DNA from: Sphaerolaimus hirsutus
Lineage: Eukaryota; Nematoda; Chromadorea; Monhysterida; Sphaerolaimidae
NCBI GenBank assembly: GCA_964036195.1
Contig: OZ038455.1
Coordinates: forward strand, 8,449,855 to 8,513,854
Direction of reading: 5' to 3'
Length of the DNA stretch: 64,000 nucleotides
Positions 1-20,133 of the stretch are shown piece by piece (position 1 is the first letter of the stretch; each line of letters starts with the position of its first letter). A program made the translations under genes and the position numbers. The notes below the pieces were generated by a model. It had not been told where the DNA came from. It made no database searches and saw nothing but the letters and a program-made list of their open reading frames with translations.

Positions 1-8
1 TTCTCGAA

Positions 9-1276
9 ATGGATGAATTTGGAGAAGAAAGTGATAGCGATTTTGATGAAGATTTCCCTGTTGAACATGAACAGATTGACACAGAAGATGCTTTTGAGGT
101 TGGCGACAATAATAATAATAATAATAATATTAACAATGTAAACATTACTTTGTCATAGCAACAACAAATTCATTTGTTTTCCATTTTCAGAACAATGATG
201 ATGATGAAACCAAGATGGCGACTGCGAACAACAAGTCTCGATTGCAAAGATCAAAGCGAGATCTGAAGGCTAGAGCAATGTACACAATTCAGAAACGACA
301 AACTTTCAACAGGCCAATAGAGATTAATACAGATTTGAATGAAGAAAAACTGAATGAAGGCCTTTTCAAAGTCAAACGAATTCTCACAAACAATGCATAC
401 AAGTTGCCAAGTGGATGGATAACACATGTCACCACCTCCCAACTTGATTATTGGCTATTGAAAAAGCTAAAAGAGACATTGATTTTACATGGAAAAATGT
501 CCACGACAGATGCAGCAGTTGTAGTTGCGGATATGATATTGGAGAATGAATCACCAATAGCTGGAGATGGGGGACGTACAAATGCACTACTATTTGAATC
601 AAGTGTTGAAACACCATCTCTGATTGGTGTGCGACGCTTTGCAATCAAGAATCCAGATCCCAATCTTGTGACTAGAATGTATTTAAGTGAAAACTTAGCG
701 GCTGAGCTCGGCTTTGTTACTGTAACATCTGGTGGCAACGTTCCAGCCAATCAGATTGATTGGCAAGATGCCGATAAAGTTCAGTACGGTTTCAGCAGTA
801 GGACAAGACGTATCTATGCAACAGTACCACATCAATTGAATCTGCGTCGACGTGTTCAAGTGCGCTGTGATAGTATAGAGCCCATGTGTTCAGTGTTTCA
901 ATCAGAGGAAAAACCGCTATTGGCTGTTTTCACATGGAAGCCAGCATTGCATACACCAGATAGTGGTTCTAATGCCTGGCTAGGCTCACGTCGAACATAT
1001 GTCTATGAACCACAAATACCACATTTTGTTCAGTTAAAACAGGTATGTTGATTTTTTCATTGCTTTTTATTATTATTATTATTATATTCAATGTATAATT
1101 ATAGATATTTATTTATTTATTTATTACAGACACCTACCAGTGGTTGTGAAAAAGGTCTCAAATTAACACTGCATAATCATTGGGGAAAACCATTCCGTGT
1201 TAATGGAATCGTTTTTGCAAGATGTGCCCTAACTGGTTCAGATGCAAGTGGCATGGCAGATACAAATTGGATTTGA
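9..1276 (+). CDS. Virus-like structural protein (partner of F54H12.2-type gene), 3 exons
   Basis: Exons 9-137, 191-1042 and 1130-1276 join in phase 0 through introns of 53 and 87 bp with GT-AG ends, giving about 375 aa. The N-terminus is acidic and Asn-rich (MDEFGEESDSDFDEDF, then a run of Asn encoded by an AAT microsatellite), followed by a basic segment and a long beta-rich region. The C-terminal pattern (GLKLTLHNHWGKPF then a short hydrophobic strand) recalls, from memory of the family, the companion protein encoded next to F54H12.2-type genes in virus-like animal elements, possibly a minor capsid protein. The frame is open upstream of the first ATG to the window edge, so the start could lie further left. 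Function is inferred from one weak resemblance and from the neighbouring gene at 2412. Codons are AT-rich, unlike the DMXL exons in the same window. Confidence 0.55.
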
Positions 1277-1463
1277 TCATTAGTCATTTTACTACATTTC
1301 TTCTTACTATTATTATGATTATTATTGTTATTGTTATTGTTATTGTTGTTGTTGTTATTGTTGGTCATTGTTTGTTGTAACTCACATAGGTGTTTTTTCT
1401 TTCATATATGCACATACATGCATACATGCATGCATAAATACATCATACATATACAATTTGCAG

Positions 1464-2055
1464 TAATCTAATACTACAATTTAACATTAAACTGGCTACA
1501 AGAAAACGACATTGTGGTCGACCTTCAAACTTTCTATCATCAACAGGTCACCAGACTACTAGCTGTAATTCATATTTACATTTTGCACCTTACGGTACAC
1601 ATTGGTTTGATAATATGGCCAATGTTCCAGATGGTGTTTTCACCAAGGAATATTGGGCTCAACAATTTGATGAAAATCGTGGCGATTTAGAATCTACAAA
1701 TAGAGATAAATGGTCTAGTGCTATGCTCGCTGAATTATCCTCTCAAAGATTGATAACACCAAGTAATTTGGATAAATCTGATGTGAACCTTCAACAACAA
1801 CAAGAACAATTTCAACGAGAAACAGGTGAACCTGCAGCTCCCGCTGGTGATTTACACTCACAAAAGCCACCAATTAATGGTACAAAAACAGAACGGCAGA
1901 CAGGTATAAAGAAAAATATCAGTAAAATTAATAATAATAAGCAACAAAAACAAGAGTCAATTCCATTAGTACAACCACCAAATCGTAATACTTGTAACAA
2001 TAAGCCTACGACTGCAAATACTGCTGGAATAACAGTTTCTACTGATTGGCTGTAA
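1464..2055 (+). CDS. Small hypothetical protein, probable exon with unresolved 5' end
   Basis: A frame is open from a possible acceptor (TTTGCAG ending at 1463) to the TAA at 2053-2055. The first in-frame ATG is at 1615, giving 146 aa. About 50 extra codons upstream are also open and include a basic stretch (LATRKRHCGRPSNFL), which suggests either a spliced upstream exon that I could not find or translation from 1615 only. The C-terminal half is Gln/Asn/Lys-rich and looks disordered. It sits between two virus-like structural genes on the same strand, 187 bp after the stop of the first if counted from the acceptor. I recognise no family. Confidence 0.45.
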
Positions 2056-2411
2056 TATTTAATAATAATATAATAAAACACAATGGTGATATTGATGTTT
2101 TTAATTATGATGCTTAAATTCATGTTTTTATGTTTATTAGTAAAAAGTTGTCTTGTAACGTTTTTTTATTGTTTCTGTTTTGTTTTACTATTTCTATTTC
2201 ATCGTTTGTTTTGTTATCAATGACTTAGTGAAATAAATTAATAAAAATAATAATAATTTGATTTGTTCACTTGTGCATACATGCAATGATTGTAATGAAG
2301 GTATTACATTCACATAATATTTAAGAAGTGATGATTTTCTATGTTTGTTATTTTCACTCATATGGAGTGAATAGTGATATAATCAACATAAAACAATAAA
2401 GCTATGCTATA

Positions 2412-4540
2412 ATGGCGTCAAATCAACCTGCACGAATTCTTAGTCCAAGAAAACAATTATTGGACAGTGGATCGCATTTATTGCCATGTCCACCAGAGTT
2501 TCGTCCAGGTGAGCGAAGTGATGTCTACTTATTTAACGATGTTTTCATACATTCATACATATATGCATATCAACAGATGCATTGCCTCCAACCCAAGCAT
2601 ATGTAAGTCACTGTGAACGAGAACAGCTCTTACAAATCAGCGAAGGAAGCGAAACATCTCCATGTGAGTGGAAAATTTTTATTTTTTGCTTGTTTTATTA
2701 TATTTATGTAAGTACAGTCTCAATATTGCAGATGTATTCACAACTGTTGCATCCAGCACTGGATTATTGGATTTTTCATCTTTAAATTTGCATGTGGTCA
2801 TGCGTGTCAAAACAAAAGATGGTCATCCCTTAAAAGAAAGTTATGAAGCAAACAATGTTTTTTCCACAGAAGCATTAACATTAAGAGACCAAATTGCATA
2901 TGTACCAAACCCATTGGAAAGTCTTTGGGATGGCATTGAGATTTTTCATAATTCATTACTCCTCAGTAGAGAATCACTTTATGGCAAGAAAGCGTATATA
3001 AAGAAATTATTACAAACAAGTGGTGTCTACCGAAGGACACAATTAGCAGCTAGTGGGTATGTAATTTTATCTCTTACTTAATAAAAAAATAAAAAACTTT
3101 TTTTAAATACATAGCTGGGTTGAAATGAACGATGAAGATGCCCCCATGGTGGAAACAAATTTATCGGAGTTTTATAAAAATAGATGTAAACCAGTATTTA
3201 AAACTCAAGAATTCTATGGCCGCTTGGCATTAGACTTTGGTGAACAGGCTAAGCCTTGGTTGGTTGTTTACTAAATATACATACTAATATTTTATATAGT
3301 CTTATTTTTTATTATAATTATAGGCATGCAGGGATGCAATTGACTATAGTTCTTAGAAGAGTCCCAGATATGTTAATGTTTGAGTCGTTTACAAGACCAA
3401 GTGATGACATAGCTAAACTACAGATTGAATTTGACACTTTGGAATTATCCGTGCGTAAAATACATCCAGTATGTTTCTTTTTTAGTTTTCATTCCTTATT
3501 GAACTGAAACAATTGAATGCGCATGCATACAGGTAACATCACTATCTATCGCACTGGCAGATCGTGTCAAAACACATGGCATTTATCACTCATTTCGCCA
3601 GTATAATGTGGGACAAATGTTTCTAACAGAAGGTGGGGGAAAGGGAAAAAAATATTTTTTTTTTAAATTTAAAAAACTTTTTTTTAAACTTTTTAAATTA
3701 TAGACAGAAAAGCAACATCTTCTGTAGTATGGCAAAAAAAATTTAAAAAAATTTTTTTAAAATTTTTTTTAAATTTTTTTTAAAATTACAGGCGCAAGAG
3801 CAGCACCTCCCATAGCTCTTGGGACTCAGGTTGGCAGGCTTCCAAGGGGGATAATAATCTGTATGAGTGCAATAGATTCAACCACCCCACAAGCTACAAA
3901 TAGAGCAAGACATAATTTTGTTCCTATGAGTATATCTGATCTTGCTGTTCAAATCGGCTCACGACTTTGTCCAAATCGCCCCTTACGATTTCAATGGGGA
4001 AAAATGGGTAGTTCAGATATATTCCGAGAGTGTTATGCACTAATGCAGGAGTGGACAAGTATTCAAAATGAGATTACAATGGAAAAGTTTGTAAACTGTC
4101 AGTTTTTTGTTTGTATAAGTCTATGCAATGACAAAGTTACAAGGTATGTTTTTTTCAATCTTTTTTGTATTTTTCAATTTTTAAAAACAACATGTTTAAT
4201 CTCATTATTTTGTTCAGCAATTCCTGGGAGGCATTAACGACTGGGGATGCATTTCTTAATTTAACTTTTTCAAGAGCTGTACCTCGAGGAGGGGTTATTT
4301 TGTTTATTATCTTAATTTTTTCAGATTATATTTATATATTTTAATTTTATTTTTTTATTCACAGGTGATCTTGTACACAATTATGGTCAATGATGCGTTT
4401 CTAAAAATAGGTAAAAAAAATAAAAAAATAAAAAAAAAAATTATTTTTTTTATTTTTTATTTTTTATTGTGTAAATATACTTATCTCATATCTTTTCAGA
4501 TGCAACAAATACAATTCACACTCAACAAGTACATTCATGA
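2412..4540 (+). CDS. F54H12.2-like capsid-type protein of a virus-like element, 10 exons
   Basis: Exons 2412-2508, 2577-2663, 2732-3056, 3115-3258, 3324-3468, 3533-3632, 3792-4143, 4218-4293, 4365-4410 and 4500-4540 all have GT-AG borders and compatible phases, giving 470 aa and a TGA at 4538-4540. The order of features matches the F54H12.2-like family as I know it: an N-terminal 'LPPTQ' segment, a strand block with 'HVVMRVKTKDG', a 'WDGIEIFHNSLLLS' block, an 'FYGRLALDFG' block, then a 'PNRPLRFQW...ECYALMQEW' block near the C-terminus. In nematodes F54H12.2 lies beside a Maverick integrase gene, so a capsid role is likely but inferred. Introns are 59-159 bp and extremely T- or A-rich. Nine introns in a virus-type gene suggest host adaptation or an element that replicates in the nucleus as DNA. 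Confidence 0.65.
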
Positions 4541-5236
4541 TTGTTATTGTGATTTTATTTTTAAATTGTTATTGTTTTTTATTATGATTTTAATTACTCA
4601 AACAAAGTTTTTTTTTATTTTAATTTTATTTGAATATCACCATGTCACCATAAAAAAGGCTGTCATCATGCTTAATAGTCTTGCAACAGATGTTATGAGC
4701 TGTAAGAACTGAGGGCGGTAGTGAAATGACTAATAGTTCATGTTTCGTTTCTGTTGTTGTGTATTTCCTTTTGTTTGTTAAGTATTTTGTTTTGTAGGAA
4801 CCCCAACTAGTGAATAAAAAAATAAGTGATTAAAAGTGAAAAATGCAGTGTAAAAATATAAATAAGTGAAGCCCCTCTGGGGTGAACATGTAAGAATACA
4901 AGCCTACAACTACATGTTTACAATGTGGACACTGTAGTACATGAAATGTATTTTGCTTGTACCATTATATATGATTATTGATGATAAAAAAATTGTATGC
5001 ATATAAAAAACACATAAATCATTTGTATATCACATGGTTATTATGTATATCACATGATTTTGCAGTTTTCCATGCATTGTTCCTGTCATTGTATCACATA
5101 GTTTTGCAATTTTCCATGCATTGCTCCTGTTTTACTACCATATGGCCTTCACAATCACAGTGAGCACACCGAATGAAGAAATGATGTGTTGCTCCCTTCG
5201 TATTGCAGAAGCTGTAATAATGTAATACATTTACAA
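4541..5236. other. Convergent intergenic region with AT-rich 3' ends
   Basis: This stretch lies between the stop of the plus-strand gene ending at 4540 and the stop of the minus-strand gene at 5237. It holds several AATAAA-like signals, T-runs, and two partly similar segments around 5030-5060 and 5090-5120 (TATCACATGATTTTGCAGTTTTCCATGC and its near copy). I see no coding potential beyond short AT-rich frames. Confidence 0.5.
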
Positions 5237-8200
5237 TTAATAATCAAAAATATCAAATAAATATAATAATAATAATAATAATAATAATAGAACTAGCCGA
5301 CAGTCTCGCCAAAACTCAAAGCCATTTGTATATGATGTGTCTGTTACATTTTCAGGTTCCCATTGAACATGACCAGTCATATTGGGATCAGTTGACCCAA
5401 TTCCCCTGGCATATGCAGAGCGCAATGGATACCTGGGTTCTTGATTTGGGTTAAAATGAAACTGTAACACTTCCACTATTTTTTTCTCAACTCTTTTCCA
5501 TTGTCTAATTTTTGCCATGATCAATCCATCCATATTCACATATTGAGACTCAGGCTTTCTCCAAAATGGCATTTCTGTTGGTGGTGGCATTAATGCTCTG
5601 TCATTGATCTTCTGTGCATCAGTCTGCTCAGATACTGATGGACAATGTGTTGCATTGATGTGTCTGTGGTGCATTTTTTGTACTACAATCATTCCAGCAA
5701 AAAGCTTGTGCAATTCAGCCATTGTTGTATCTCGTGGAATCTGTAAAAATACAATAAAAGTTATGATTTATGAGAGATAAATCACACATGAAACATACAT
5801 GTCCCGATGCCTGGATTTTGATTTGCTGTGTCTTTTGATCAATTACTGCTTGTATGATTGGAAGCTTATATACTGGATATGGTGGTTCTCCATGACCTCT
5901 CTTTGTAGCAACATACATTCTGAAATCATTCATTTTTCCTCCCCTTTCCTTGGTCAGACTTGACATTGATGATTGATCATTGACTGTTGGCGGAAGATCT
6001 ATAATCTGTCCATTTTCTGTTAAAAAACTTCTGTCCAGGTCAACTCCATTTAAATCTCGATTTCTTCTCAATGTCAATATAATTGGACTGTTGAAATTCA
6101 CTCTGTGTGTTGTTCCTGATATCGGACGTTGCAACCTTACTGGACAACCTGACCTCAAATGATCCGCGAAAAGTTTGGCCACAATATCTATATCTTCAAT
6201 TGTATCCTGTTGCATGTGCACTCTGCCCATGTTTCCTGGCAACTCCCATTGTACTCTCCATTGAAAAATTGGCAAATTCAAATTCTGGTCTTTATTCATT
6301 TCTGCCAAATTGAATTCTACTGCATATGAATTTTGCATCACTTGATGTTTGATACTTGCCAAAGTAAGTGCCATAAAGATATTTTCAGCTTTTTCTGACA
6401 GTATTGCCACATTTTGTTCTGCTCTACCAATGGCAACTTCACATTCAATTCTCCAGCGAGTGAATTCATAAAGTTGATCAGCATTTCGTCCCTTTTGTTG
6501 TGGCCTAGTAGCTTTCTTTTTATTCTGTGTTGATGTATCCTGAGCATTTGCAGTTGTTGATACCACTTTCTCAGCTGTGTACATTGGTGGAGTACTGATC
6601 ACTTCTACTGATGTCTCCATTGATGATGATGATGATGATGCTTGCATTTTATCCTTGACCGTTGTCTCTGTTTGTGCTGGCTGTAGTGTTGCTGATGATA
6701 TAACTGAAAACTTGCCTGTATTCAAGCCCCACTTTAAAAATGCATTTATATTCTTCTTGACAAACTCATGTTCTATTTCTGCTGAACTGCTTCTGGCCAT
6801 CCAAGCTTCTTTCTCGCCACCTGACGCAGCTGGTCGGTCATTTTCGGCAAAACACCTGCGATTGGGTCCAACTGAAGCAGATCGCAAATTGCACTTTCCT
6901 CTGCTCCTCGAACAAGAGAACTCATGTCCGATTCCGGGCATAGCCCTCGTGTTGAATGACTCGATGCTTTCACGCTCATTACTGACAGGGCATCCAGTTC
7001 TGTCATTGCCTGGTATTCCTTCATTGATGGATCGTTTCTGATCATTTCTGATAGTTTTCTCAGTGCTGGCAGATTCAAGCGCCGGCGTGCAATCTGTCTC
7101 AGGCGTGCACACATCTCTAATGGTGTATCTGGATCCATTTGCAGCATTTCCTTTATTTTTGCTGTTTCCACTGGTAGATTTTCCATATCCAGAAGAAAGT
7201 TGTTGTCTGCTAGAGCTTCTTGTCGTACTTTCTGTGTCATGTTTATTGGACTGCACATCACCACCACATCCTCCATATTTTGTTGATTTGTCTCTTCCAT
7301 CTTTGAGCTCTTTGAGGATTCTTTGCATGTTTTCTCGTCGTCTTGCTGCAAGCAGTTCATTGCATTGTTTTTCTCTACCTGTCTTAATTCTGCACTCATC
7401 TTCGTACTTCTTAGCATCATTGTCTGTGGGGATGGTGATTGTGATGTGCTGCTGTTGAGATTCCTGTCGCTTTCGTTCTTGCACTCTCTTTTCCCATGCT
7501 TCTTTAGCCTCATGTCCCTGTTTACTGCTGAACGATTCCTGTCTATCTGTCTCACTGGCGAAAACAACCGTCGCTGGGCGAATGTTTTCGAGCTGTTGCT
7601 TTGAAAGTGTTGTCCTCCTTGCTGTTCTGGTGCTTTGATTGCATTTGTCACATTTCCTTCTACCATTGAGCTGTTGACTGTCATCTCTGGTGTTGTTTTG
7701 ACTGATTCTTTCAGCTGTTTCTGTTTCTGTTTCTGTTCTTGCTCCACATTCTGTGCATTGATCTTCTGTAGTAGCTGTTCTGACCTCTCTATGCCTTCCA
7801 ATGCTTTCTGACGAATCTTCTTCATCTCGTTTTCTGCTTCCTCCATTGATTGTTGTTGTTGCTGTTGTTGTTGTTGTTGTTCTTGGTCTTGTTCGTGCTG
7901 CTGTTGTTGTTGTTGTTGTTGTTGTTGTTCTTGGTCTTGTTCGTGCTGCGCTTCCATCTCTTCCCACATCTCCTCTATGCTTGACAACTCGTCCAATTCC
8001 GATACTGTCTCTACTGTTTCTGGTCTCTTTTGACACTGGTTCTCTGATGCCTGTATTGCTTCCTCTACCTTCTGTAGAGCAGCTTCTGCTTGCTGACGTA
8101 GCTGTTCGGCCTGCTCCGAAATTTTGTCTAGTAGAATATCTCTTGCTTCTATCTGACTCTGTGCATACGCCATTGGTGTCATTTCTTGTAGTACTGGACT

Positions 8201-10107
8201 GTGATGAGTTGGTGTCAGTAGATACTCTACCGCTGACCTCTGAAAAACAACAGTACAATTTAGATATACATATGCATTCATAATCAAAAACATTCCAGAC
8301 AATTAATATCACTATAATCAAATTATTATTATTATTATTTAATTAACAAACCCTGTCGATCCTGGTTACTGATTCTGGAATTGTGGACTGACTGCATTCC
8401 ACTTGTGTTGACATCATACCATTCATTGCATGATCTTTGTCCTGGGTAACTTTCATCTGATCTTGCATCTCTGTGTCCTTGGCATTTGGAATATCCATCT
8501 GAGAAAAAATAATTAAATAAATAAATAAATGAATAAGTAAATAAAAAGTTTAAAGCTTAAACTATCATCTTGAACTCACCAGTGACATTTTTGGCTGATT
8601 CTGTTGATGTGGTGCTGCTAGACAATCGTTCCACTTTCTTTTCTGAGGACACATTTTTGTCATTGTTGTTGTTGTAGTTGTCTGCACTTGTCCAGGTTCT
8701 AGTGATGTAGAAGTCTCTTGATGACTCTTTACAATGCTCATAAGCTCTTTTCTCCCCTATATCAGTAATTGCCACAATATAATTCAGTAATGGAATAGTA
8801 TAATCAACACTAAATCAATTAATTCTAACCAGATATGGCGACACTGAACGGGTCCTTTGAAACCTTTGCATGCTTCCTTGACTGTTTTGATTCATCTGAT
8901 TCACTATAATTGACATTTCTGGACCTGCGGCGTAAGTGTTGATATGGTGCAGTGCCATATTTTGTTTTAGATTCAATAGTTGATCCAGTGCGACTGTGGT
9001 CAGTAGTGATATTGGTATTGATGCTGCTATCTGTGATGATCGGAAATGTGTCTTCACTTGAAATGCTGTAGTTGATGCCAATGTTGGTACTGTTGCCGTC
9101 GTCAAATCTGCAGACAAAAATAAATATATGAATGAATTACTCAAATTGGAAAGTATGAAATAATTAAGAACCAACTTTGCTGCCTGTGATGAGTTTCTCT
9201 TGTTTGATGTTTCATCCACCACACAAATTTGAAGCTCTTGATCCAAAAATGAAGGCTTCTTAGGTGCTTCTAATTTTCTTTCTGCTTCTTCTTGATTTTT
9301 CTTTTGTTGAGCACGAGCACGAGCACGGCCACGACCACAGCCTCCTATACGCTTCTCAGAACAGCTGGAATCCACTTTTACTGTCTCCTCTCTATCTCTA
9401 GACACAGTGCTGACCAGCGACTTGACAATTGACGATGGAGTGCAGGATTCACCTGTAAACATATAATATTTATTTGTTTCCAGATATCCCATCCTAAAGA
9501 GAATTTCATGTACTCAAAAAAGAAAACAAAATTCATGGACAAACCAGATTTGCAGAATGTAGACTTGAATCCTGATCCGGCTGTGTCACTGTCAATAAGT
9601 GAATCAATTGAACAAGTAGTAGCTGTCGAATCACTGACTTTGTTGTGGGCGGTACTGTCGGCTCTTCTAGAGATGTTGTTGTCAGTGCTGAGGGTGTTCT
9701 GCTCTCTACTGGTACAGTCACTGGTGTCTCGTTCACTATATTGTTCTGCCTGGCTAGCCTAAAAAATACAATGACAATTTCTTTATATAACACCAGAAAA
9801 TAAATAAAAAAGTTCTGAAACATGTAGTAAAGCATACCTTTTTTGAGCTGCCTGCTTCTTTAGCTGTCTTTGTTTTTTGTTTGCCAGTTTGAATAGCTGT
9901 AACTGTGCCAAATAGTAAATTCTGTTGCTCGAATGACTCTTTAAACTGTTGAATTATATGCTTAGCATTGATATCTCCCTCAAAATGTAGAAAATCAAAA
10001 TTTGGTCCCTTTTCTGAACTGTTGTTTGAATTCTGTCGATTTTCCAGGCTGACCAGACATGCAGACAGACAAATAAAAGTGAATAGAGTGGCTGTAGAGC
10101 ACTTCAT
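5237..10107 (-). CDS. Giant secreted Ser/Thr/Asn-rich protein, 8 exons (frame A)
   Basis: Reading down the minus strand, exons 10107-9838, 9758-9545, 9452-9176, 9107-8830, 8756-8580, 8498-8352, 8239-5799 and 5740-5237 join with GT-AG borders and matching phases (0,1,2,1,1,1,0), about 1,435 aa. The start is MKCSTATLFTFICLSACLVS, a clear signal peptide. Exons 1-5 are Ser/Thr/Asn-rich with many NxS/T sites. Exon 7 contains an Arg/Thr repeat, a basic helical stretch (KEAWEKRVQERKRQ) and, after about position 6770, a folded-looking domain with conserved-type patterns (FQWRVQWELPGNMGRVHMQQ). The last exon ends in a hydrophobic Leu run coded by a TTA microsatellite, which may be a membrane tail or simply read-through. 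A 1.6-kb part overlaps frame B (next entry). I recognise no family. An alternative model ends exons 1-5 as a separate gene. Confidence 0.55.
6773..8498 (-). CDS. Overlapping coiled-coil protein in a second frame (frame B), 2 exons
   Basis: Exon 8498-8352 starts exactly with ATG at its first base after the acceptor and reads MDIPNAKDTEMQDQMK. It joins 8239-6773 in phase 0, giving about 537 aa ending in TAG. The product has a charged helical N-terminal half (ISEQAEQLRQQAEAALQKVE), two Gln-rich repeats beginning HEQDQEQQQ, and two C-terminal copies of a short helical motif (CARLRQIARRRLNLP and TDQLRQVARKKLGWP) separated by about 90 residues. All of this DNA is also open in frame A. Frame B may be expressed from its own promoter or by alternative splicing. 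A 47-bp GT-AG intron near 6780-6830 could instead join frame B to the C-terminal domain of frame A. No family recognised. Confidence 0.5.
8323..8338. repeat. (ATT)n microsatellite in intron
   Basis: Short trinucleotide run in the 112-bp intron between the two exons shared by frames A and B. Similar AAT/ATT runs lie at about 109-130, 1069-1085 and 5265-5290, so this microsatellite class is common in the cluster. Confidence 0.7.
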
Positions 10108-10364
10108 GTGATAGCTTTTATTTCTTCTGAAAAAATAAATGTTTGATATAAAAAGATTGTCATGATAAAACACAGAGTTAAATCTAGGACAATCACTATT
10201 TAGTGGACTTGAGTATATTGGACACAGGAAGATAGTAAGAGCATAATACTCATGGTTTCAACATGGACTTCTTACCAGCTTCTAGTGTCTTGTATACAAC
10301 TCTAAGCCCTTCCAAACTGTAGTAGAGATTGAGTATAATTTAGAAGAATTTTAGTTGAATTATA

Positions 10365-10800
10365 ATAGTCAAACCAAACCGAAGGTATGAAGTGAACCCT
10401 GCTAGTAGTACCCTTTTCAATATAAAAAATACTAAACAACCGAACTGAAGGTGTATAGTTAACTCTGCTAGTAACACTCTTTTTCAAAATGCAAAACATC
10501 GTAAAATCAAACCGAAGGTGTGAAGTGAATCCTGCTAGTAGTACCCTTTTCAATATATAGATTATTATACAACTGAGCTGAACTGAAGGTGTGTAGCTAA
10601 CTCTGCTAGTAGTACCATTTTTCAAGATATTTAATACTAAAAAGACCGAACTGAAGGTGTGAGATAAACCCTGCTAGTAACACCCTTGTTTTCAGATTGA
10701 AAAAATACTGTAAAATCGAACTGAAGATGTGAAGTGATCCCTGCCAATAGAGTCATTTTCAAGATATGAAATGCAGCAAAGCCAAACTGAAGGTGTGGAG
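10365..10800. repeat. Tandem repeat, about 62-66 bp unit, ~7 copies
   Basis: Units share a core reading 'GAACTGAAGGTGTG' then 'CTGCTAGTAGTACCC' then 'TTTTCAATAT'. They vary by small indels and substitutions, so this is an old array. It lies just upstream of the start of the giant minus-strand gene, on its 5' side. Confidence 0.75.
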
Positions 10801-10803
10801 TGT

Positions 10804-11035
10804 GTGAAATTTTTCGGTGAGGGGGGAGGGGGGTTCAAACCCCATGAGCTGGATGTTTAATTTTTTCGGTGGGGGGGTTCTGACCCCATGAGCCGGAGTT
10901 TGAAATTGTTTTCGATGGGTCACAAAGTCCGACTCATCGAAAACAATTTCAAACTCCGACTCATGGGGTCAGAACCCCCCCCCATCGAAAAAAATTAAAC
11001 GTCCAGCTCATGGGGTTTGAACCCCCCTCCCCCCA
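10804..11035. repeat. Foldback with arms of about 100 bp
   Basis: The left arm (ATTTTTCGGTGAGGGGGGAG, CCCCATGAGCTGGA, TTTGAAATTGTTTTCGATG) is repeated in reverse complement after a spacer near 10920-10935. The transcript would form a long hairpin. G-runs on one arm pair with C-runs on the other. Confidence 0.8.
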
Positions 11036-11639
11036 CCCACACTTAAAAATTGATATGAAATTGTTGAAATAAATAAATAGTGAATAAATACACCCCCCCA
11101 TATCATACGTCTAAAAAACGTCCAACTGAAGCATAAAAAAATGCGCTGGAATGTGAATAAATATGGTCCCCTTATTATACATTTAAAAAACGTTCAACTG
11201 AAACATAAATAAAATGCTGGAATGTTTGCCGGAAAGCCCGCTAAAATGTCTCAACTAGTCAACACAAAGTGGGGGAAAAAGGTTAAAAATGTCATACCAA
11301 AGTGTATCCAAAACAATTTTTTGGCATTCGATCTTTCATATAACGAAAATTAAAAAAACAGCGACAGTCTAATTTCGATTTTCACATTCTATTAAAGTCC
11401 TATTTATCGTTAATCTACTATTTACATGCAGGTGGATCAAAATGAAAATCTGGGCTTATACGCTGGCATTTTACCTCGTTTTTGGCTAGTTTTATTGTAT
11501 AATATTTTGAAATTTGATTTGAGGAAAGTGACCTTGAATTTAAGAAAAAAACTTCGAATGCCAAAAAATTGTTCTGAGAATATCCGGAAAATAACAGTTG
11601 ACACATTACAACACGTATTTAGTTGTATCATTTCAACGG

Positions 11640-11869
11640 ACATGATACTCTGCCATTACACTAACTTAGGTCTCACGTTGGAAGCGTGCCAATGGTGATA
11701 AAGTGTGTGTACAAAAGGTGAAAAAATCATTGTTGTAATTAAGTGAACGTCTAGTGTGAAAACCGATGACTTTTTTCAATTTTTTTATGGAAATCGCACA
11801 TGTAAAAAAATCATTGGCACGCTTCCAGCGGGGGACCACGCGTGCAGGGTGTAAAGTGACTGGAGTATA
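11640..11869. mobile_element. TATACTC-type miniature element, copy 1 (left end degenerate)
   Basis: Contains GATACTCTGCC at the left, the internal pair 'GGAAGCGTGCCAATG' and 'CATTGGCACGCTTCCAG', and ends GGGTGTAAAGTGACTGGAGTATA. Other copies are at 13393, 26338, 61124 and 62319. The TA at the termini suggests a TA target site of Tc1/mariner type, which is an inference. Confidence 0.7.
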
Positions 11870-11997
11870 CTAATGACTTGTCAGATGTCAATCAAGATCA
11901 AACAAAAATGAAACTTTAGCATTGAATTAAGTTAAATGTAGATGACAGACAAAAAATGTAAATGTAAAATCAAAATACCCATTACGCAGCCTACCAT

Positions 11998-14900
11998 GCT
12001 AGCGCCCTACAGAGCATTTGCTTCTGGTGCCAGTGCCCTGGTGTCAACTCCGTAAATTGAGAAATAAGAGATAAAACAGTAAAAAAAACTGAAGTATTCA
12101 GTTTTTTTACTGTTTTATCTCTTATTTCTCAATTTACGGAGTTGACCCCTGGAAATTCCTCTGGCACAATTGACTGCAGCCTACAAGATTTTGACAAAAT
12201 TCGAGTGGAAAACGTGAAATTTACATGGAACCGCGGAAAGAAGGTGATTTTGCCGGCCAAAGATTGTCATGTTGGAAAACAATTAGCGCCAAGGTGAGAA
12301 ACGTTTTTTGATGTCAAAACTTATGAATTTTCGGCGAATATCATACTTAGCTTGGAAATCCATACTTTATCAGTAAAAAATTTTCGATAAATCTTGTATT
12401 TACCATATTTCCTTGAATCGCCCCCTCTTGAATTAACCCCCTCAAATTTTCCACTCTGAAACCCCTGGGGATATTTCGAGGAAATATGGTAATATACTTG
12501 ATTCAATTTACATGCTACATGTGTGCAACTTAACATAGACAAATTATCTTAGCTAGTTATGAAAAAAAAGTGCGCAACAATCAAAAAATGTCAAAACTTT
12601 GACGTCAAGTGCCAAAAAACATCATGGCATTTCTGACACTATTTTGCCATTGCGTTTTTGTCATTTAGCACCGTGATTGAAACTGTTTTGCTTAGATGGC
12701 ATTTTAGTATTTGGCACATGTCCAGAAATCTGAAAAAAACAAATAAATTATCTTAAGCAGACAATGATCGAAAAACGTCAAAACTTTGGCGTCAAGTGCC
12801 AAAAACATCATGAAGCTATTCTGGACCAGTGCCAAGCACTAAAAATGGCACCTAAGCAAAACAGTGTCAATCATGACGTTAAATGACAAATAACTTAAAC
12901 AGACAATGATCGAAAAATGTCAAAACTTTGGCGTCAAGTGCCAAAAAACATCATGAAGCTTTTCTGGACTAGTGCCAAACACTAAAATGGCACTTAAGTA
13001 AAACAGTTTCAATTACGGTGCTAAATGACAAAAACACAATGGCAAAATAGTGTCAGAAGTGTCATGATGCTTTTTATTTATTTGACATCGGTGTCAAGTG
13101 CGAAAACTTGTCTATAAACGTTTTTCAGGCTTGGACCGAACATCGAAATTGAATGTAAAACGACAGAAAACGGCGCAAAATACAAGGCAGAAATTGATGT
13201 CTACACTATTGCTAGCACCATTGACACCACACTCACAGCCAAATCTACTTCAAGTGTCGGCACCACTGCCAATCCAAGCACCACAAATCTGAACTTGGAC
13301 GTTTTTAGAACCCAGCCCGCACCCACAGTGACCATGTCAAAATCAGTGAGTTTGAATTTAAGGTTTTGAGTTTTTTTATTTTTTCTCTTCTGTATACTCG
13401 GCGTACGTGATACTCTGCCCTCGCACTGATTTATGTCTCGGTTTGGAAGCGTGCCAATGATTGTCAAATCATGCAATTTCCGTAAAAAGATGAAAAAAAA
13501 ATTCATCGATGTGAATATATTAATGAATAATAGTATAACAACAATCATTTTTGGCATCTTTTTATGAAACTAGCACACATTAACCATCATTGGCACACTT
13601 CCAGCGGGAACCACGCGTGCAAGGTGTAAAGTAATCGGAGTATATTATATTTAAAATACAGGAAGTTGCAAGTGACAAATATGTAAAGTGCCACATACAT
13701 GAGAGCAATATTGAATCATTACAAAATGCAATTGTGGCATCTGAGAGCAAACTTTTGAAAAAAGGTGAAACACAAAGCATGAATATGCTGAAAGCCTTTG
13801 AACAGCTTCTCAAACTACAAAATCTCACATGCCCAAGTATCAATTCAAACAGTGAAAGTGGCACATGCCGAATCAGTGATCTTGATTTCCAAAAAGTGCA
13901 AAACATTGTCAGTGAATGTGGTGAAAAATCAATGAAAGAGAGTAGTGCTCAATGGTCAACCATGCTGGAAAGTGCCAAAGCAAACTTCAAAATGCCAAAA
14001 ATAACATGCCCAACTGTGAATTCATCAGTGATCTTGGAAAGTTTAAAAGGAATGATTGAAATGAAAAATAATCAGTGCTCCACTGTGGATATTGACACTG
14101 TGGTATGTACTTACAAATAGTATTTTTTTATCTATTTTCACACTTTTCTAAATTATTTACATTCAAAACTGCAATGTAGAACAAAGTTTTTGGCTCCTTG
14201 GTGAAAAATGCCACAGAAAAAATGGCAAATGGCATCAAAATTGATTTCCAAAAAATGCAAAACATTGCCAGTGAATGTGGTGAAAAATCAATGAAAGAGA
14301 ACAGTGCTCAATGGTCAGCCATGCTGGAAAGTGCCAAAGCAAACTTTAAAATGCCAAAAATTACATGTCCAACTGTGAACTCATCAGTGATTTTGGAAGG
14401 TTTAAAAGGAATGATTGAAATGAAAAATAATCAATGTTCCACTGTGGATTTTGGCACTGTGGTATGTGCTTACAAATGGTATTTTTTTATCTATTTTTAC
14501 ACTTTTCTGAATTATTTACATTCAATACTGCAATGTAGAACAAAGCTTTTGGCCTACTGGTGAAAAATGTCACAGAAAAAATGGCAAATGGCATCAAAAT
14601 CAATACAACTGAGGGAATGACAAATCTGAGCATGCAAATGGCACTGAACAATAAAAACATGAGAAGTACAATGACAGACTTTCATGTAAATGCAATTTTC
14701 ACATTTTTCTACTTGAAAAAATAAATTTGATTGTAACACTCAATTACAGATCTCATTATTAAATGGCATTGTGGATGTGAATCACACAGTTATCTGCATT
14801 TATTCTGGCATGATGGGTGGATTTTCACTGTTGAATAATAGTATGGCAAAAATTGAGGTTTGTGGTTTGTACAGCATGGACATGTAAACATGAAAACACT

Positions 14901-16136
14901 TTCTTTTTTCACCTCTCAGATGGATAGTGGTGAGCAGAAAGAAATGTGGGAAAAAATGAAGGCAGACAATAAGAAACTCATATCTCAAGTGAATATGCTA
15001 ATGAATCTGATTAAAAAAAAATCTCTGGCTGGGAATGTTGAGCCTAGCAGTGCACCTACAACTAGCCAAACTTCCAATTTTGCAAGCACAACATCCACCA
15101 CAAAAAAACCTTTGAATCTGAATGTGCAAAAAAATCAAATGATGAATGATGGGCCTAATTTGTGTAACTTGAATTTACAAAGTTGGACTGCTTCACTACA
15201 AACCAAAAATGCTGGTGAAATTGAAAAACTATTGAAGCCATTCACTGCACAATTGAAAGCACTTGAAGATCGGATGGATTTCATGTATATGGTACATATT
15301 TGTCACTTGCAAATATTTTCTACAAATTTTTTAACTCTTACATGTGATATATGTATTCAGATGGAAATGGGCATGCTGTCAACCATTGTGGCATTGGGAT
15401 GCCTCAGTACAATTGTGTCCGCCATACTGGGAATGATTATATGCAGCAAATGGAGCAAAAAAAGGCGCAATAGTGATACTGACGCAATGATTCTGTGAGT
15501 GAAAGCTATCAATACTTTAAATCCAGGAAATCTTAAAATAAGCTGTACTTAAAACTTTTCAGCCAGGAAACAGGTCTCACATCCCTCACTGAACACAGCA
15601 ATGCCGCATTTAATGAAGAAAGTCGCCCAAAAGTAACGGTAAATTGAACTATTTCCTAAGTAACATTCACCTTTTTCATATATGTTGGACATTGAATCTA
15701 AACTTCAAAATTTTGACAATTCATGATTTTTCATAAATTTTTCCATGGGTGAAATGCATTCTAGGAAAATAGTTATGTCAGTTATAGAGTCATTATAACC
15801 TACTTTCAGTTAATCAATGACAGTGGCTATGTGCAATTCATACCAGACAAAACGCAGATTGCAAGTCAACTGCGCACAGCGATTCAAAATAGACAAACGG
15901 CGATTGCAGAAATTCACAACGAGGATGAACCATGTTCCTCTGGTGGTGGGTCGTTCCATATAAATAGATTGAATAGTTATTGTAGTTCGTTATCGACAGT
16001 GCGATATAGTAGCCAAGATTTTTATACTTTTAATAATGCCACAGCACTATTTGATCCCGTGGAACTGGACGAGAGCGAGCACGATTTATATGTGCAGCAA
16101 ACCGAATGCCGATTGGGCAAGCCAGCGAAACATTAA
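11998..16136 (+). CDS. Type I membrane glycoprotein-like gene, about 11 exons, one exon interrupted
   Basis: Supported exons are 11998-12293 (interrupted by a foldback at 12042-12146), 13129-13345, 13662-14102, 14180-14461, 14539-14685, 14750-14857, 14920-15291, 15361-15494, 15563-15638 and 15810-16136, all GT-AG and in phase after the first. They give roughly 700 aa downstream of 13129. The product has a cysteine-rich N-terminal exon with a CxxCxC pattern, a Thr/Ser-rich stretch, tandem repeat modules each with ITCPTVNSS, a helical region, one transmembrane segment (TIVALGCLSTIVSAILGMII), then a basic and a cytoplasmic tail of about 150 aa. A possible signal-peptide exon starts at ATG 11442 (MKIWAYTLAFYLVF), but its phase does not fit the next exon directly. 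Layout resembles a cell-surface or envelope-type glycoprotein; no homologue was recognised, and because of the insertion this copy may be non-functional. Confidence 0.55.
12042..12146. mobile_element. Near-perfect foldback inserted in an exon
   Basis: The arms read GTCAACTCCGTAAATTGAGA and its reverse complement, with almost no loop. The flanks repeat CCCTGG (12036-12041 and 12147-12152), consistent with a target duplication. The insertion brings an in-frame TGA into the surrounding exon. Confidence 0.8.
12403..12492. mobile_element. CCGTATTTCCTCGAAATAC-type miniature element, short diverged copy
   Basis: Termini TACCATATTTCCTTGAAT and ATTTCGAGGAAATATGGTA are imperfect inverted repeats around a C-rich/T-rich core. 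It sits in the 835-bp intron of the glycoprotein-like gene. Confidence 0.65.
12545..13090. repeat. Complex inverted and direct repeat in intron
   Basis: The segment GTCAAAACTTTGRCGTCAAG followed by TGCCAAAAA and CATCATG occurs three times in direct orientation near 12585, 12775 and 12917, and TGACACTATTTTGCCATTG pairs with an inverted copy near 13040. The whole intron therefore can fold on itself. Confidence 0.65.
13393..13644. mobile_element. TATACTC-type miniature element, copy 2
   Basis: Runs from TATACTCGGCGTACGTGATA to GTGTAAAGTAATCGGAGTATA, with GGAAGCGTGCCAATGA and ATTGGCACACTTCCAG inside. It fills most of the intron 13346-13661 of the glycoprotein-like gene and ends 18 bp before the next exon. 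Confidence 0.75.
13884..14602 (+). repeat. Tandem duplication of exon plus intron, 359-bp unit
   Basis: The interval 13884-14242 and the next 359 bp are nearly identical across exon, donor, intron and acceptor; for example GATTTCCAAAA occurs at 13884 and 14243 and the exon starts AACAAAG at 14180 and 14539. Few differences exist even in the intron, so the duplication is recent. It adds one repeat module to the ectodomain. Confidence 0.9.
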
Positions 16137-16299
16137 ATACTACTTTTAATTACTTTCTCCAGACATAATTTAGATTTTTACCAAGATTGTAGTATTTTTT
16201 GTTTCATGAAAAATCGGCATTTTACAGACATTTTGTGATGAATTAGTCAAAAATAGTTTTCTATTTAGCATGGCCCCCATTTTCTCATTATCTTCAGGT

Positions 16300-16500
16300 G
16301 CCGGTTCCGCAAGTGGAAAAGTTAAGAGTTAAAAGTTACGAGTTGAGTAAAATGATAAATGATAATTTAAGAGTAAAGTTAAAAGTTAAGAGTTGAGTAA
16401 AATCCAACTCTTAACTTTTAACTTTACATTTAACTTATCATTTATCATTTTACTCAACTCTTAACTTTTAATTCTTAACTTTTCCACTTGCGGAACCGGC
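16300..16500. mobile_element. Foldback with GCCGGTTCCGCAAGTGGAAA ends
   Basis: Left arm and right arm (TTTCCACTTGCGGAACCGGC) are perfect inverted termini around AGTTAAGAGTT-type repeats. Relatives occur near 27176-27328 and 53562-53797. It lies 164 bp after the stop of the glycoprotein-like gene. Confidence 0.8.
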
Positions 16501-16774
16501 CCCTGAAAATGCCTTTTATTATTCAGCGCTGCTTTTTTATTTTCCCCACGCATATTTACGTCTTGCGCGTATTTATTAAGCAAATCCCAGATACCGTAAA
16601 CCCTTTAATCTAAGCATTCTTTTCGATACATTTTTGAAATTATTATGTGAACTGTCAGTAATTCAATTGACCACAAATTATGAAGTAAAAAACAAAAAAA
16701 TGTCGACAAAATATAGGGTTTACGGTATGCAAGAAAATGCTCCATTCCTTTGTAGTATTTATTTTTTGGCTGTA

Positions 16775-17065
16775 TTTTTGGCCGTACGTTTTGGTCGTAA
16801 TTTTGGCTGTAGTTCCGTATTTTTCGAGTAAATGTAAATACACCTTTTTTTGCTGCAATATTGGATTTATGTAGTGCCATTCACTTAAGATTCACATTTA
16901 TCCATTTATCTAAGTTGATATTTTTGGCCGTATTTTTGGTCGTAATTTTTGGCCGTAATTTTGGCTGTAGGTGCATATTTTTCGAGTAAACGTAAATACA
17001 CTATGCTGCAATATTGGATTTGTTTAACGCCATTCACTTAAGATTCAAATTTATCCATTTTTTTG
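16775..17065. repeat. Two direct copies of about 145 bp
   Basis: Each copy has several TTTTTGGCCGTA units, then ATTTTTCGAGTAAA, then GCTGCAATATTGGATTT and GCCATTCACTTAAGATTC. The copies start near 16775 and 16918. No gene is seen between 16501 and 17634; this direct repeat is the main structure there. Confidence 0.7.
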
Positions 17066-17634
17066 CAATTTAAGTTGCTATTTAGTATGTGATTTTGTGT
17101 GTGCAATTAAGACGTGCGCGTTTTATCTTCTGCTGCTGCAATTAAGACAGTCATTTTTTCGTTCGTATTTGCATATAATTTCATCCCCAAATTTATTTTG
17201 GTTTAATAAATATTTATTTTTTACATTTCAATTTTCAACTTATATTCAGATTTATATGATTTTACAGTCAACAAGTAAGTATATTCAAACATATTTAGGT
17301 AGATAAAATGCGACAATATCTTATCAGCATTAGACATCTTCACGGCAATTCACAAAGACAATTCACAAAAATAACACAATTAAGGATTTTCACGCCCTCT
17401 CGCAACTGTCTATCCCCGCCAGACATCTTTACGGACATTTATAATTATTCAGTGACATTTCATGATCGGATTTTTTGTTAAAGAGATTTTTTGTCGAAAA
17501 ACAATATGATAATCTTCATAGTATTATCTTTGATAGACAATCTTAATAGTTGATGTCAAAACATTTAGCAGAATACAAGAGCCTAGATACCTATTTAAGA
17601 ACAATATTTTCACTTGTCACTTCTCACTAACAAA

Positions 17635-19090
17635 ATGACTTCCATGGAAATTCACTTAAGTACAAAAACCAATAAACTATTGGAAGCCATGCCCTCAAAA
17701 AGACTAAAATTCACCAATTTCTCACTCAAATATGCAGTCTATAGTTTGGCAACTATTGTGGCATCTGTATGCCCTGAAACTGGCTTTTTGAATCTTGAAT
17801 ACAACGGATTCAAAACTCAAATACAGGTGAACATAATTTGGGGCATTTTTTTATCTTATAAAACACCATGTACTCATATACGTAGGCCTATGTCGTTGAC
17901 TGGTGTGTACTCAAACCTGAAATACATGTACGTGTGCCAGAAGGTTTCATGAGACACCTTTACGTGGCTTTGGATGAGAGACAGGCTGATTGCATGCTTG
18001 TAAACATCTTGAAAAAATTCTTTCATGATCAAATCAGTTAGTATTTAGACTATACTTTTTTGATTATCACTCATATTAAAATAACTGAAAAAATTCATCC
18101 ACAGAAATTCACTATATACCTATTGCCTATTTTCCAAATCACAATGTAGTGAAAATGCCAACTCCTCTGAATGAAATCATAATTCCGATGTTCATGGATT
18201 TTTCACTACTCCATCCAGTATGTAGGGCAGATCCTGCCTATGATAAGGAAAGCACTGTGAACATGGCAAAAAGATGTCATGCATATCGAGAGCATGATCT
18301 TCTCACACGTTAATTCATTGAGAACTAATTTTTTATTATTTATATTATGATGTCATATTTGAACATGTGCAGGAGCAACACCTGATCACATCACTGGATG
18401 GGCAGAAAAAGCATTTCTTGAACTTACTCATTCACAATTGTTTCGTCATAAAAAACAATCTGAAAATTTGGAAACCTTTCTACACTTTTCACTCAAAGAG
18501 CACTGTATAATTACTAAAAAAGGAAACATTTTGCACAAATGTATATACTGCAAGGACGCCAAACAAAACAGATTCATGCTTCATGTGCCATATCTTGTCT
18601 GCACTGGCTGCTTTTCACATGAACCACTAAATATACCACATGACATGCTCCAATGTGTCAGTTTCAAATGGCGTGTTCCTGATGTTGTCAGTCAGGCATA
18701 CAATGAAAAACAGAATGCTCAAAAATTCAATGCAAAAAATGATACACATTCATGCTGTAAAAGACAACGAAAAGGTGCAATTGTACCGACAGAATGTCAT
18801 ACACAAAGCTCTCTTCAGAAAAGGTTTTCATTTAGAGTTACTTATTCATGAAAAATAATCTGAAACATTCTAATTTTTTCCCAAACAGGATCTCCAAATC
18901 AGCCATGGATGCCTTTCTCAGAAAAACTGTTGTGAATGCAGGCACACAAACAGATTTGTGTCTTCTGATTGAAAGAAATCAAAGTTCAAGTGATTCTGAT
19001 AGTGATCAAACTGTAGAAGGAGAATTGAGAAAACTGTACAAACACAGACATCGTTTGGCTGTTAATAGATTGATGACAACAAAAGACTGA
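17635..19090 (+). CDS. Unknown protein with CxxC-CxxC cluster, 5 exons
   Basis: Exons 17635-17826, 17886-18036, 18105-18308, 18373-18823 and 18889-19090 join in phase with GT-AG borders, giving about 399 aa. The N-terminal 190 residues look globular with several Trp/Cys/Tyr positions. The fourth exon has CIYC and CTGC separated by 18 residues, which could bind one zinc ion. The tail carries an acidic Ser run (SSSDSDSD) and ends with basic residues. Codon usage and short T-rich introns match the virus-like genes to the left rather than the DMXL exons to the right. I recognise no family; a role in DNA binding or virion assembly would be a guess. Confidence 0.6.
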
Positions 19091-19195
19091 TTTGGATTTC
19101 ATATTTCTATTTTTTTGTTAATATTCATCACATAAATTCAGATTATTTGACTGAATAAACTCTAAATTGAAATTAGACATTATTTTCACCTTATA

Positions 19196-19424
19196 AGAGC
19201 CTTTTAACTTACAAACGGATACTTATGGCTCAGAAAACTTATGTCCCACTTTTGTGGACATTTTCCGGACAGTTATGACCTCACTCGTTACTTCACTACC
19301 GTAACCCACTTCGGTTATCACCTCACTTGTTCTCATTCACTCCATAACTGTCCGGAATATGTCCACAAAACTGGGACATAACTTTCACGGCCATAAGTAT
19401 CCGTTTGTAAGTTAAAAGGCTCTT
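19196..19424. mobile_element. Foldback with AGAGCCTTTTAACTTACAAA ends
   Basis: Left end AGAGCCTTTTAACTTACAAACGG... is repeated inverted at the right (GTTAAAAGGCTCT). Inner parts (GTCCCA, GTGGACATTTTCCGGACAG) also pair. It marks the right-hand edge of the virus-like gene cluster. Confidence 0.75.
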
Positions 19425-20133
19425 GTATACTGCTAGTCTCCCTTTGCAGTAACATTCAATCTGCATGATTTTGATTTAGCAACAAAGAAAATTTCGGTTC
19501 CACGTCAATCACATGGTAATTAATAACATTCTGCATCACAAATCACAGTAATTAAAACAACGAGAATTACACAAGTAGCATAAGTGTATAACGTCGGAAG
19601 CATTCCAACCCCCTAGCGCAAAAATACCGTATTTCCTTGAAAAAGGCATTGAAATAGACTGCAGCTACAGAACAAATAGCACAATCAATATTTAAACCCT
19701 GTAAAACTCTCCAGTCAAAATTCTCGTTCAACTAATGAGACTACGGTAAAATGTATTTCCAATGAAATACGGCAATCATACTTTTTTGCTATGTCAAAGA
19801 CTGTTCTGAACGTGGCACCAGCTGTTGCTCGATAGTTACAAGTGCTATCAATTTGAGTAACTCCAACGCAACATTTTTATTATATTTGATCATCTACATT
19901 TCTAACAACTTCGAGTCCACATTTCTAACAATGTTTAGAAATAGTATTTAATTTTAGTATCATTTCAGTAGTATTCATATTAAACGTAAAAAATTGGTAA
20001 AATTAGCTTTGTCTAAAGTTATCGGACTTACAGCAAAGAGGTGCCACGTCCAGATTAACCCAGTATTATACAATAAAATAATCGTGTATGTGTAGGCGCA
20101 CCATTTTGTCAATGACTAATGTGACTTTACCTA

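Follow-up and report, generated by a model that had tools for sequence, protein, structure and literature searches.

The region described here, on the minus strand of a window of 64,000 nucleotides (the whole stretch of DNA that was analysed), is likely a dual-coding gene of an intron-rich Polinton, in which the splicing of exon 3 would choose between protein A and protein B. Both frames very probably code, and within exons 4 to 7 the sequence places them one base apart over 2,069 nt. On balance, the gene is taken to represent a splice switch of ancient origin, carried by a Polinton of an animal. Here, one cassette exon would select between two unrelated proteins with about 690 dual-coded residues. 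Most of the roughly 100 copies would have retained this arrangement while the more constrained frame diverged to about 40% identity and while introns that both frames can cross were gained or lost within the overlap.

Exon structure and openness of both frames

The predicted parts of the gene, in positions of the window, are as follows.

9838..10107, minus: exon 1, frame A, single coding; ATG, signal-peptide-like N-terminus (by eye) and a conserved FLHFEGD..IIxQFKE segment
9545..9758, minus: exon 2, frame A; frame B open too, which is uninformative
9176..9452, minus: exon 3, proposed frame-switching cassette of 277 nt (1 mod 3); codes A and has three stops in B
8830..9107, minus: exon 4, predicted to code both A and B; first B AUG of the exon preceded by a conserved B motif, (A)SIP
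8580..8756, minus: exon 5, predicted dual coding
8352..8498, minus: exon 6, 147 nt, predicted dual coding by openness and similarity
6773..8239, minus: exon 7, predicted dual-coding part, 1,467 nt; B stop at 6775-6773, CAA/CAG repeat inside
5799..6772, minus: exon 7, A-only part, start of protein A's conserved downstream domain
5237..5740, minus: exon 8, last part of protein A; frame open as far as the stop at 5239-5237

Protein A comprises a signal-peptide-like start, a middle part rich in S/T/N/D/R and a conserved C-terminal domain; exon 3 contributes the basic stretch GRGRARAR. The end of exon 8 runs through an ATT repeat and the end of A is modelled only; with this end, A would comprise about 1,430 residues. 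By eye, protein B appears coiled-coil-like and ends in two related helical motifs. Pfam returned nothing for A or B and PHROGs nothing for the three proteins tried, and single-sequence structure models reached a mean pLDDT of 44 for the end of B and 31 for the A domain.

An earlier note on this DNA had described exons 8498-8352 and 8239-6773 as open in two frames, with frame A continuing in phase from five upstream exons and on into a downstream domain. This description holds, since the two exons contain no stop in A and no internal stop in B, in comparison to 46 stops in the third frame, and the phase of A is as described. The dual-open stretch is even longer than first noted: frame B stays open in exons 8756-8580 and 9107-8830 as well, and the common open stretch comprises 720 codons including the end of exon 3.

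The expected number of stops was obtained by holding the amino acids of one frame and permuting the synonymous codons 5,000 times. For the full stretch, 30.3 stops in A are expected on average if B is held (permutation minimum 18) and 7.7 stops in B if A is held (minimum of the 5,000 permutations 2), whereas none is observed in either frame. For exons 8498-8352 and 8239-6773 only, the expectations are 23.1 stops in A (minimum 12) and 4.1 in B, the observed value of 0 in B being reached by 0.2% of the permutations. As a control, exon 3 has 3 stops in B vs. 3.5 expected, and in exon 2 the openness of B is uninformative with 0 to 0.7 stops expected. Thus, both frames are open over a long stretch beyond chance. 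The caution that CAG-rich DNA has fewer chance stops was justified, since composition does lower the expected B stops to 7.7 instead of about 30; B is partly open because A is poor in hydrophobic residues.

Copies in the genome and selection on each frame

Long dual coding is usually hard to test, homologues being few. Here, about 100 matches were found in the same genome, and all relatives compared are copies from this one genome; searches of 2.9 million viral contigs and 5.8 billion proteins yielded no relatives. Since the gene is chromosomal and multi-copy, selection on either frame becomes measurable from its paralogues, of which one genome offers about 100 with graded divergence; the single-coding exons of the gene serve as internal controls.

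Homologues with stops in one frame, which had been named as evidence against dual coding, are in the main not what was found, since 24 of 28 other copies examined are stop-free in both frames as far as these match. In B, L021 and L022 each have a single stop; L031 and L032 are decayed copies, and in L020 six stops interrupt the A model and two the model that skips exon 3. Weak second A matches in L018, L019, L021 and L022, with one stop each, were left out of the stop count, that of L018 because it lies downstream of the overlap in a different frame (s4280-4651) and those of the other three because they cover the same query range as L018's. The frames stay stop-free even in copies with B only about 40% identical, and the third frame has 15-47 stops wherever the frames overlap in the copies read. 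Between distant groups, identity is 38-68% for B and 24-43% for A, and both proteins are recognisable at a DNA divergence of 46-48%. Splice dinucleotides and exon lengths modulo 3 are preserved between the window copy and L015-L017.

The position of substitutions within the codons separates the overlap from its surroundings. Pooled counts at A1=B3/A2=B1/A3=B2 are 362/259/256 in the overlap vs. 140/114/277 in the A-only part downstream (p 6e-17; p 1e-13 with one pair per lineage), so that substitutions peak at the third position of B inside the overlap and at the third position of A outside it. The difference is seen in 4/4 pairs from three lineages (p 5e-6 to 7e-4). In the comparison with L015, A3 is the most changed position in exon 1 (74% amino acid identity), and the A-only part of exon 7 (80% amino acid identity, 102 genome matches) is likewise dominated by A3 substitutions. 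Exon 6 alone, with counts of 7/10/13, does not display the dual pattern.

If synonymous codons of B are permuted for each pair, 3.7-19.3 stops in A are expected and none is observed in 10/10 pairs, L020 and L032 having entered this test with their open parts only; with the partner's codon also held, the expectation is 0.2-7.2. Conditional residue scores are less uniform. The score of B given A reaches p 0.06 for the window copy vs. L015 and is significant in 3 of 10 pairs, and that of A given B reaches p 0.03 and is non-significant in 3 of 10 pairs. Taken singly, the B-given-A tests are weak, in part for want of informative A-synonymous changes. Unless the partner's codon is held, identity lies above the null even in the third frame, and therefore only stop counts and conditional scores are counted as evidence. 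From the sequence, both frames are constrained and B more so than A; the signature of purifying selection is strong for the position pattern of B and the missing A stops, and weaker for the residues of A.

A candidate 47-bp intron near 6780-6830 had also been proposed in the earlier note. It is superfluous in the window copy, in which both frames read through, and was rejected there, the B tail LRQVAR(K/R)KLxWP being conserved across the site in seven copies from five groups. In three distant copies (L045-L047), an intron does lie there within the overlap, and both frames can be carried across it. Spliced, A joins its domain and B gains a short tail, which is window-like in L045 and L047. For these copies acceptors were listed only where A stays open, and the continuity of A is therefore by choice.

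Entry into frame B

The start of B had been placed at the ATG at 8498. This assignment does not stand, since the codon is CTC in L015, L016 and L017 and B residues are conserved upstream, in exons 4 and 5. In 4/4 lineages, a conserved B motif of exon 4 even precedes that exon's first B AUG by at least 20 codons.

The simplest entry into B would be the skipping of exon 3, as judged from reading frames and exon phases. Inclusion of this exon (277 nt, 1 mod 3, with B stops) would yield protein A. With the exon skipped, translation would pass from exons 1 and 2, read in A, straight into the B frame of exon 4 and yield a product of about 850 residues, which would have the first ~161 residues of A in common and differ in the remainder. 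The length of exon 3 is not a multiple of three, and its removal brings the upstream frame into line with the second. Exon 3 measures 277/277/280/352 nt across four lineages with B stops at chance level, is 1 mod 3 in 22 of 23 copies, and the skip ORF is open in 18 of the 23; these ORFs join the signal-peptide exons to frame B over roughly 780-980 codons. A phase match of this type arises about one time in two by chance.

Further observations concern exon 2 and the beginning of exon 3. The second half of exon 2 displays a weak sign of B constraint in some lineages and the first 75 nt of exon 3 look B-constrained in comparison to L015; such B-like constraint is present in some lineages and absent in L025 and L028. 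Exon-3 skipping leaves it unaccounted for.

A separate entry for B is a less probable reading; it would use either an alternative promoter or an alternative first exon that brings a start codon, or a non-AUG start in exon 4. B AUGs are present at codons 49, 50, 103 and 100 of exon 4 in four lineages and in exon 6 in the window copy, and the constraint in exon 2 and at the start of exon 3 would fit a separate transcript entering before exon 2. Nevertheless, the conserved B motif precedes the first B AUG of exon 4 in 4/4 lineages, exon 3 stops B, and the window copy has no B AUG in exon 2 or in the end of exon 1 past the last B stop.

The same constraint could also indicate that B is one longer frame that takes in exon 2 and the beginning of exon 3 and continues in exon 4, by way of an alternative exon-3 donor or of a frameshift close to the exon 1-2 junction. 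Between the window copy and L015, the first 75 nt of exon 3 differ at six sites, 6/6 of them third positions of B, and the B stop TAA is preserved, and LARQ-like and LLLxQL-like motifs of the exon-2 B frame recur in four lineages. Against this, no AUG or conserved shift site was found, the GT at exon-3 offset 31 that is common to the window copy, L015 and L025 lies in a poor donor context and is missing in L018, and L025 and L028 are without the early-exon-3 pattern; this reading is doubtful. That a single frame codes and the other is open through composition (hydrophobic-poor A, Q/E-rich B, CAA/CAG repeat) is very improbable: the reduced expectation of B stops, the weak constraint on A and single conditional tests of only p 0.03-0.06 between the window copy and L015 would fit, but not the stop-free copies, the codon-position pattern in all four pairs, the persistence of both proteins at high DNA divergence and an intron within the overlap that can respect both frames.

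Other routes into B were rejected. Exon 1-4 and 1-3 joins run into stops within 17 and 33 codons, respectively, in four lineages. Alternative exon-4 acceptors upstream of the motif give B from exon 3 at 0 of 7 AGs in the window copy and 0 of 6 in L015; in L018, 1 of 8 does so and the acceptor route stands there. Retention of intron 3 leads into B in the window copy only and fails in L015, L018 and L025. A -1 frameshift at the terminal A AAA AAG of exon 1 leads into the third frame, which stops, and this site is absent from L018 and L025.

The Polinton setting and known systems

The dual gene sits in a complete 36.6-kb Polinton with terminal inverted repeats (TIRs), target site duplication, protein-primed family B DNA polymerase (pPolB) and integrase. 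The features of the element are the following.

19195..19434, minus: right TIR, 240 bp, 100% identical to the left TIR
C7:8432729-8432968 (= L038 2629-2868), outside the window: left TIR, 240 bp
19435..19440, no strand: target site duplication AGTCTC, 6 bp; the same six bases precede the left TIR
2412..4400, plus: major-capsid-like gene, convergent with the dual gene and modelled in about 8 exons
191..1276, plus: second capsid-like gene, at least 2 exons

Long inverted repeats are thus present at the termini and AGTCTC flanks both ends. The polymerase, searched exon by exon and not at full length, matches PF03175 with E 2.6e-7 (L038:8762-9046, above the cut-off), and a second exon matches it with E 0.004. 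The retroviral-type integrase matches PF00665 in one exon (L033:6227-6616) with E 2.7e-7 and a score of 31.2 bits, just below the cut-off of 32.6. For a packaging ATPase, the candidate is L033:2668-3189, with an SGKTTL motif seen by eye and a Pox_A32 match at E 0.033 only.

By resemblance to Polinton capsid motifs, the gene at 2412..4400 may correspond to the major capsid protein (double jelly-roll), and that at 191..1276 may be penton-like. The capsid-like genes had no Pfam or protein-database match and no meaningful PDB match; they adjoin the dual gene in two other lineages too (L042, L043). The neighboring ORF at 13635-14120 gave only three weak Pfam matches, all below their cut-offs, and Rfam at gathering thresholds and a tRNA scan were empty. 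With low confidence, a role of both A and B in particle assembly or the virion core may be proposed, because the gene adjoins capsid-like genes and persists in about 100 places.

Among known systems, dual-coding isoforms from non-triplet alternative splicing in C. elegans and human are close in design (PMC13247117): a frame-shifting splice choice, an exon stretch in two frames and more conserved wobble positions are common to both. The 54 C. elegans events of this survey are mostly under 200 nt with a maximum of 829 nt and concern host genes with RNA evidence, in contrast to 2,069 nt (2,330 nt in L025) predicted from sequence in a mobile element. Polyomavirus middle T and ALTO over large T (PMC5852106) likewise involve a common first exon spliced to an out-of-frame second exon; virus and proteins are unrelated, and here a cassette exon would be skipped and the overlap spans four exons. 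Overprinted viral overlapping genes (PMC8227390) also hold two frames in one DNA, with product disorder being common there, whereas the present gene is spliced, chromosomal and multi-copy.

The earlier note had regarded long dual coding as rare in intron-bearing genes. The setting here is a virus-like Polinton and not an ordinary host gene, and therefore long dual coding is less out of place here. In a literature search mostly outside subscription papers, no case of dual coding in a Polinton or other transposable element was found among the papers listed. If the splice switch is true, a virus-like animal element would use host splicing to obtain two long proteins from one stretch. This stretch would exceed twice the length of the longest one in the C. 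elegans survey (PMC13247117), and among the cases that surfaced in the search no splice-selected dual-coding stretch of an animal genome would be longer. Vertebrate Polintons/Mavericks share the TIRs, the 6-bp target duplication, pPolB and the retroviral-type integrase; according to PMC8097293, their eight core genes are intronless in intact elements, in contrast to the intron-rich genes of this 36.6-kb element, with 8 modelled exons in the dual gene and about 8 in the capsid-like gene.

Two open frames and their predicted proteins

Exons 8498-8352 and 8239-6773 on the minus strand had been described in the earlier note as open in two overlapping sense frames. This was borne out here, since frame A contains no stop and frame B no internal stop, with 46 stops in the third frame. 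Frame A, spliced from eight exons by GT/AG sites, is open from the ATG at 10107 onward, and frame B is open from within exon 3, across all of exons 4 to 7, as far as the stop at 6773, a total of 720 codons. By permutation of synonymous codons, 30.3 stops would be expected in A given B and 7.7 in B given A; none was observed in either frame, a value that no permutation out of 5,000 reached in either test. Because fewer stops are expected in B than in A, the openness of B is partly due to the composition of A. For C. elegans, PMC13247117 gives 54 dual-coding events, tending to be below 200 nt with a maximum of 829 nt.

Within the overlap a CAA/CAG repeat is present (7930-7850). The exon that holds it varies in length only by multiples of 3 in near-identical copies from the same genome (L012 -6, L013 +3, L014 -3); L011, unlike these, is disrupted in its downstream part.

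In each of four lineages, protein A begins, by eye, with what resembles a signal peptide. A central region that looks disordered follows, and then a conserved C-terminal domain encoded downstream of the overlap, for which no relatives were found. Protein B has a coiled-coil look and two related helical motifs, again by eye. Disorder in the products of overlapping genes is described in PMC8227390. From position and conservation, a role in particle assembly might tentatively be guessed.

Selection on each frame

Because B codons begin at the second base of A codons, A1 equals B3, A2 equals B1 and A3 equals B2. In four pairs of copies, two of which share L018, pooled differences in the overlap peak at A1=B3 (362/259/256 at A1/A2/A3), whereas those in the downstream A-only exons peak at A3 (140/114/277). 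The two patterns differ at p 6e-17 when pooled, p 1e-13 with one pair per lineage and p 5e-6 to 7e-4 for each pair singly; exon 6 of the window copy and L015, taken singly, is without the dual pattern (7/10/13).

Ten pairs were further analyzed with B residues held and synonymous codons permuted, L020 and L032 being represented by their open parts only. Here, 3.7-19.3 A stops were expected, or 0.2-7.2 with the partner's codon held as well, and none was observed in any pair. The similarity of A exceeded the conditional null in six of the ten pairs at p 0.02-0.04 and in one at 0.002, and did not exceed it in L018-L020, W-L032 and L025-L032 (W, the window copy). The weaker test of B given A reached p 0.004-0.03 for three distant pairs, was not significant for the other seven and gave p 0.06 in a separate conditional test; A-only control segments revealed no constraint on B (p 0.8). 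Both frames are under selection, and the dual coding is almost certainly real.

Proposed entry into frame B

The ATG at 8498, taken in the earlier note as the start of frame B, is not kept, as the codon is CTC in L015, L016 and L017. Exons 4 and 5 show conserved B residues, and an aligned (A)SIP motif of exon 4 lies at least 20 codons upstream of that exon's first B AUG in all four lineages. Frame B is stopped by exon 3 in four lineages, the number of stops being about the chance level. Joining exon 2 to exon 4 continues the A-frame start into frame B, with predicted products of 850 (window), 893 (L015) and 803 (L018) residues, and of 993 in L025 with 17 codons before its ATG. Joins of exons 1-4 and 1-3 meet a stop within 17 and 33 codons of the join, respectively. 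Due to these observations taken together, skipping of exon 3, by which the A-frame start of exons 1-2 would be carried into B at exon 4, is the simplest entry and is somewhat favored as the one used. Exon 3 measures 277-355 nt. Of 23 copies, 22 have an exon 3 length of 1 mod 3, and 18 keep the skip frame open (the status of L009-L014, L016 and L017 being taken from stop positions). Among the remaining five, L020-L022 are stopped, L019 is without the upstream pattern and L030 is cut by the region fetched. According to PMC5852106, middle T arises when splicing leads into a reading frame that overlaps large T.

A B-like constraint further upstream fits poorly to exon-3 skipping; to account for it, either another B-frame product or some other route of entry would be required. 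Between the window copy and L015, it is seen in the second half of exon 2 (differences 8/6/3) and over the 75 nt at the start of exon 3 (9452-9378; 6/0/0, all six at B's third position, with the B stop kept). Exon 2 of the L018 pairs behaves likewise (4/3/0 and 1/3/0), and the constraint of both segments is absent in L025/L028. Within 9452-9378, about 24 nt are nearly identical between the window copy and L025, copies otherwise about half diverged.

In the distant copies L045, L046 and L047, an intron lies within the overlap, 3' of LRQ or LRK codons. A standard acceptor there would join A to its domain and give B a short stop-ended tail, recognizably related to that of the window in L045 and L047 and less so in L046. 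Since the listing of acceptors was confined to those that keep A open, the independent part of this result is the tail of B.

Copies, the Polinton and its surroundings

A DNA search of the genome gave 54 matches, part of them short repeat matches. In protein searches, the downstream domain of A had 102 matches and the end of B had 101, the window's own counted; 98 of the B matches are without internal stop. Homologues with stops in one frame, which by the earlier note would speak against dual coding, were looked for in 28 other copies, and both frames proved stop-free in 24. In the first set of 24 copies, 21 are stop-free by best match, counted as 20 since L032 has a TAG in its longer B match; in the second set all four are. 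L031 has stops in both frames. In L020, L021 and L022 one frame is stopped and the other intact or less damaged (L021 and L022 each with one B stop and no A stop), which makes them material for asking which frame decays first. The overlap is open over about 1.2-2.0 kb in most copies read, shorter in L021 and L032 and absent in L031, with 15-47 third-frame stops where it is open. The most different groups diverge by 46-48% in DNA, with identities of 38-41% for B and 24-28% for A.

The element carrying the dual gene is a Polinton of 36,560 bp, its right part being window 1-19434. A 240-bp inverted repeat, 100% identical, is present at both ends (C7:8432729 in contig coordinates and window position 19434), begins with 5'-AG and is flanked on both sides by AGTCTC. 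Left of the window, the same contig encodes a family B polymerase (PF03175, E 2.6e-7) and a retroviral-type integrase (PF00665, E 2.7e-7, slightly under the curated cut-off). Two further genes lie within the element:

191-1276, plus strand, penton-like gene with introns
2412-4400, plus strand, major-capsid-like gene with introns

Their likeness to penton and major capsid genes is presumed; it did not come out of the database searches. Two other lineages also have relatives of both adjoining the dual gene. A further plus-strand gene within the element (13635-15498) contains, by eye, a pair of near repeats (SSAQWSxMLESAKANF..), ends in a hydrophobic C-terminus and looks like one for a membrane or envelope-type protein. 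In PMC8097293, introns were not observed in intact vertebrate Mavericks and 6-bp duplications are described; 'intron' and 'splic' do not occur in the available text of PMC11071308.

Elsewhere in the window, an ORF of 980 aa with a CIDTGC motif is present on the minus strand (49949-52891), which we take to be gag-like, the motif presumably being aspartic-protease-like. An ORF of 321 aa (39311-40276) presumably represents a BEL/Pao-type reverse transcriptase fragment. By eye, 62654-63640 reads as a neuropeptide precursor in which (S/A/N)xLRFGKR units recur, which points to an invertebrate animal as host. A WD40-repeat-like ORF (21811-22308, minus strand), again by eye, is probably a host gene exon.
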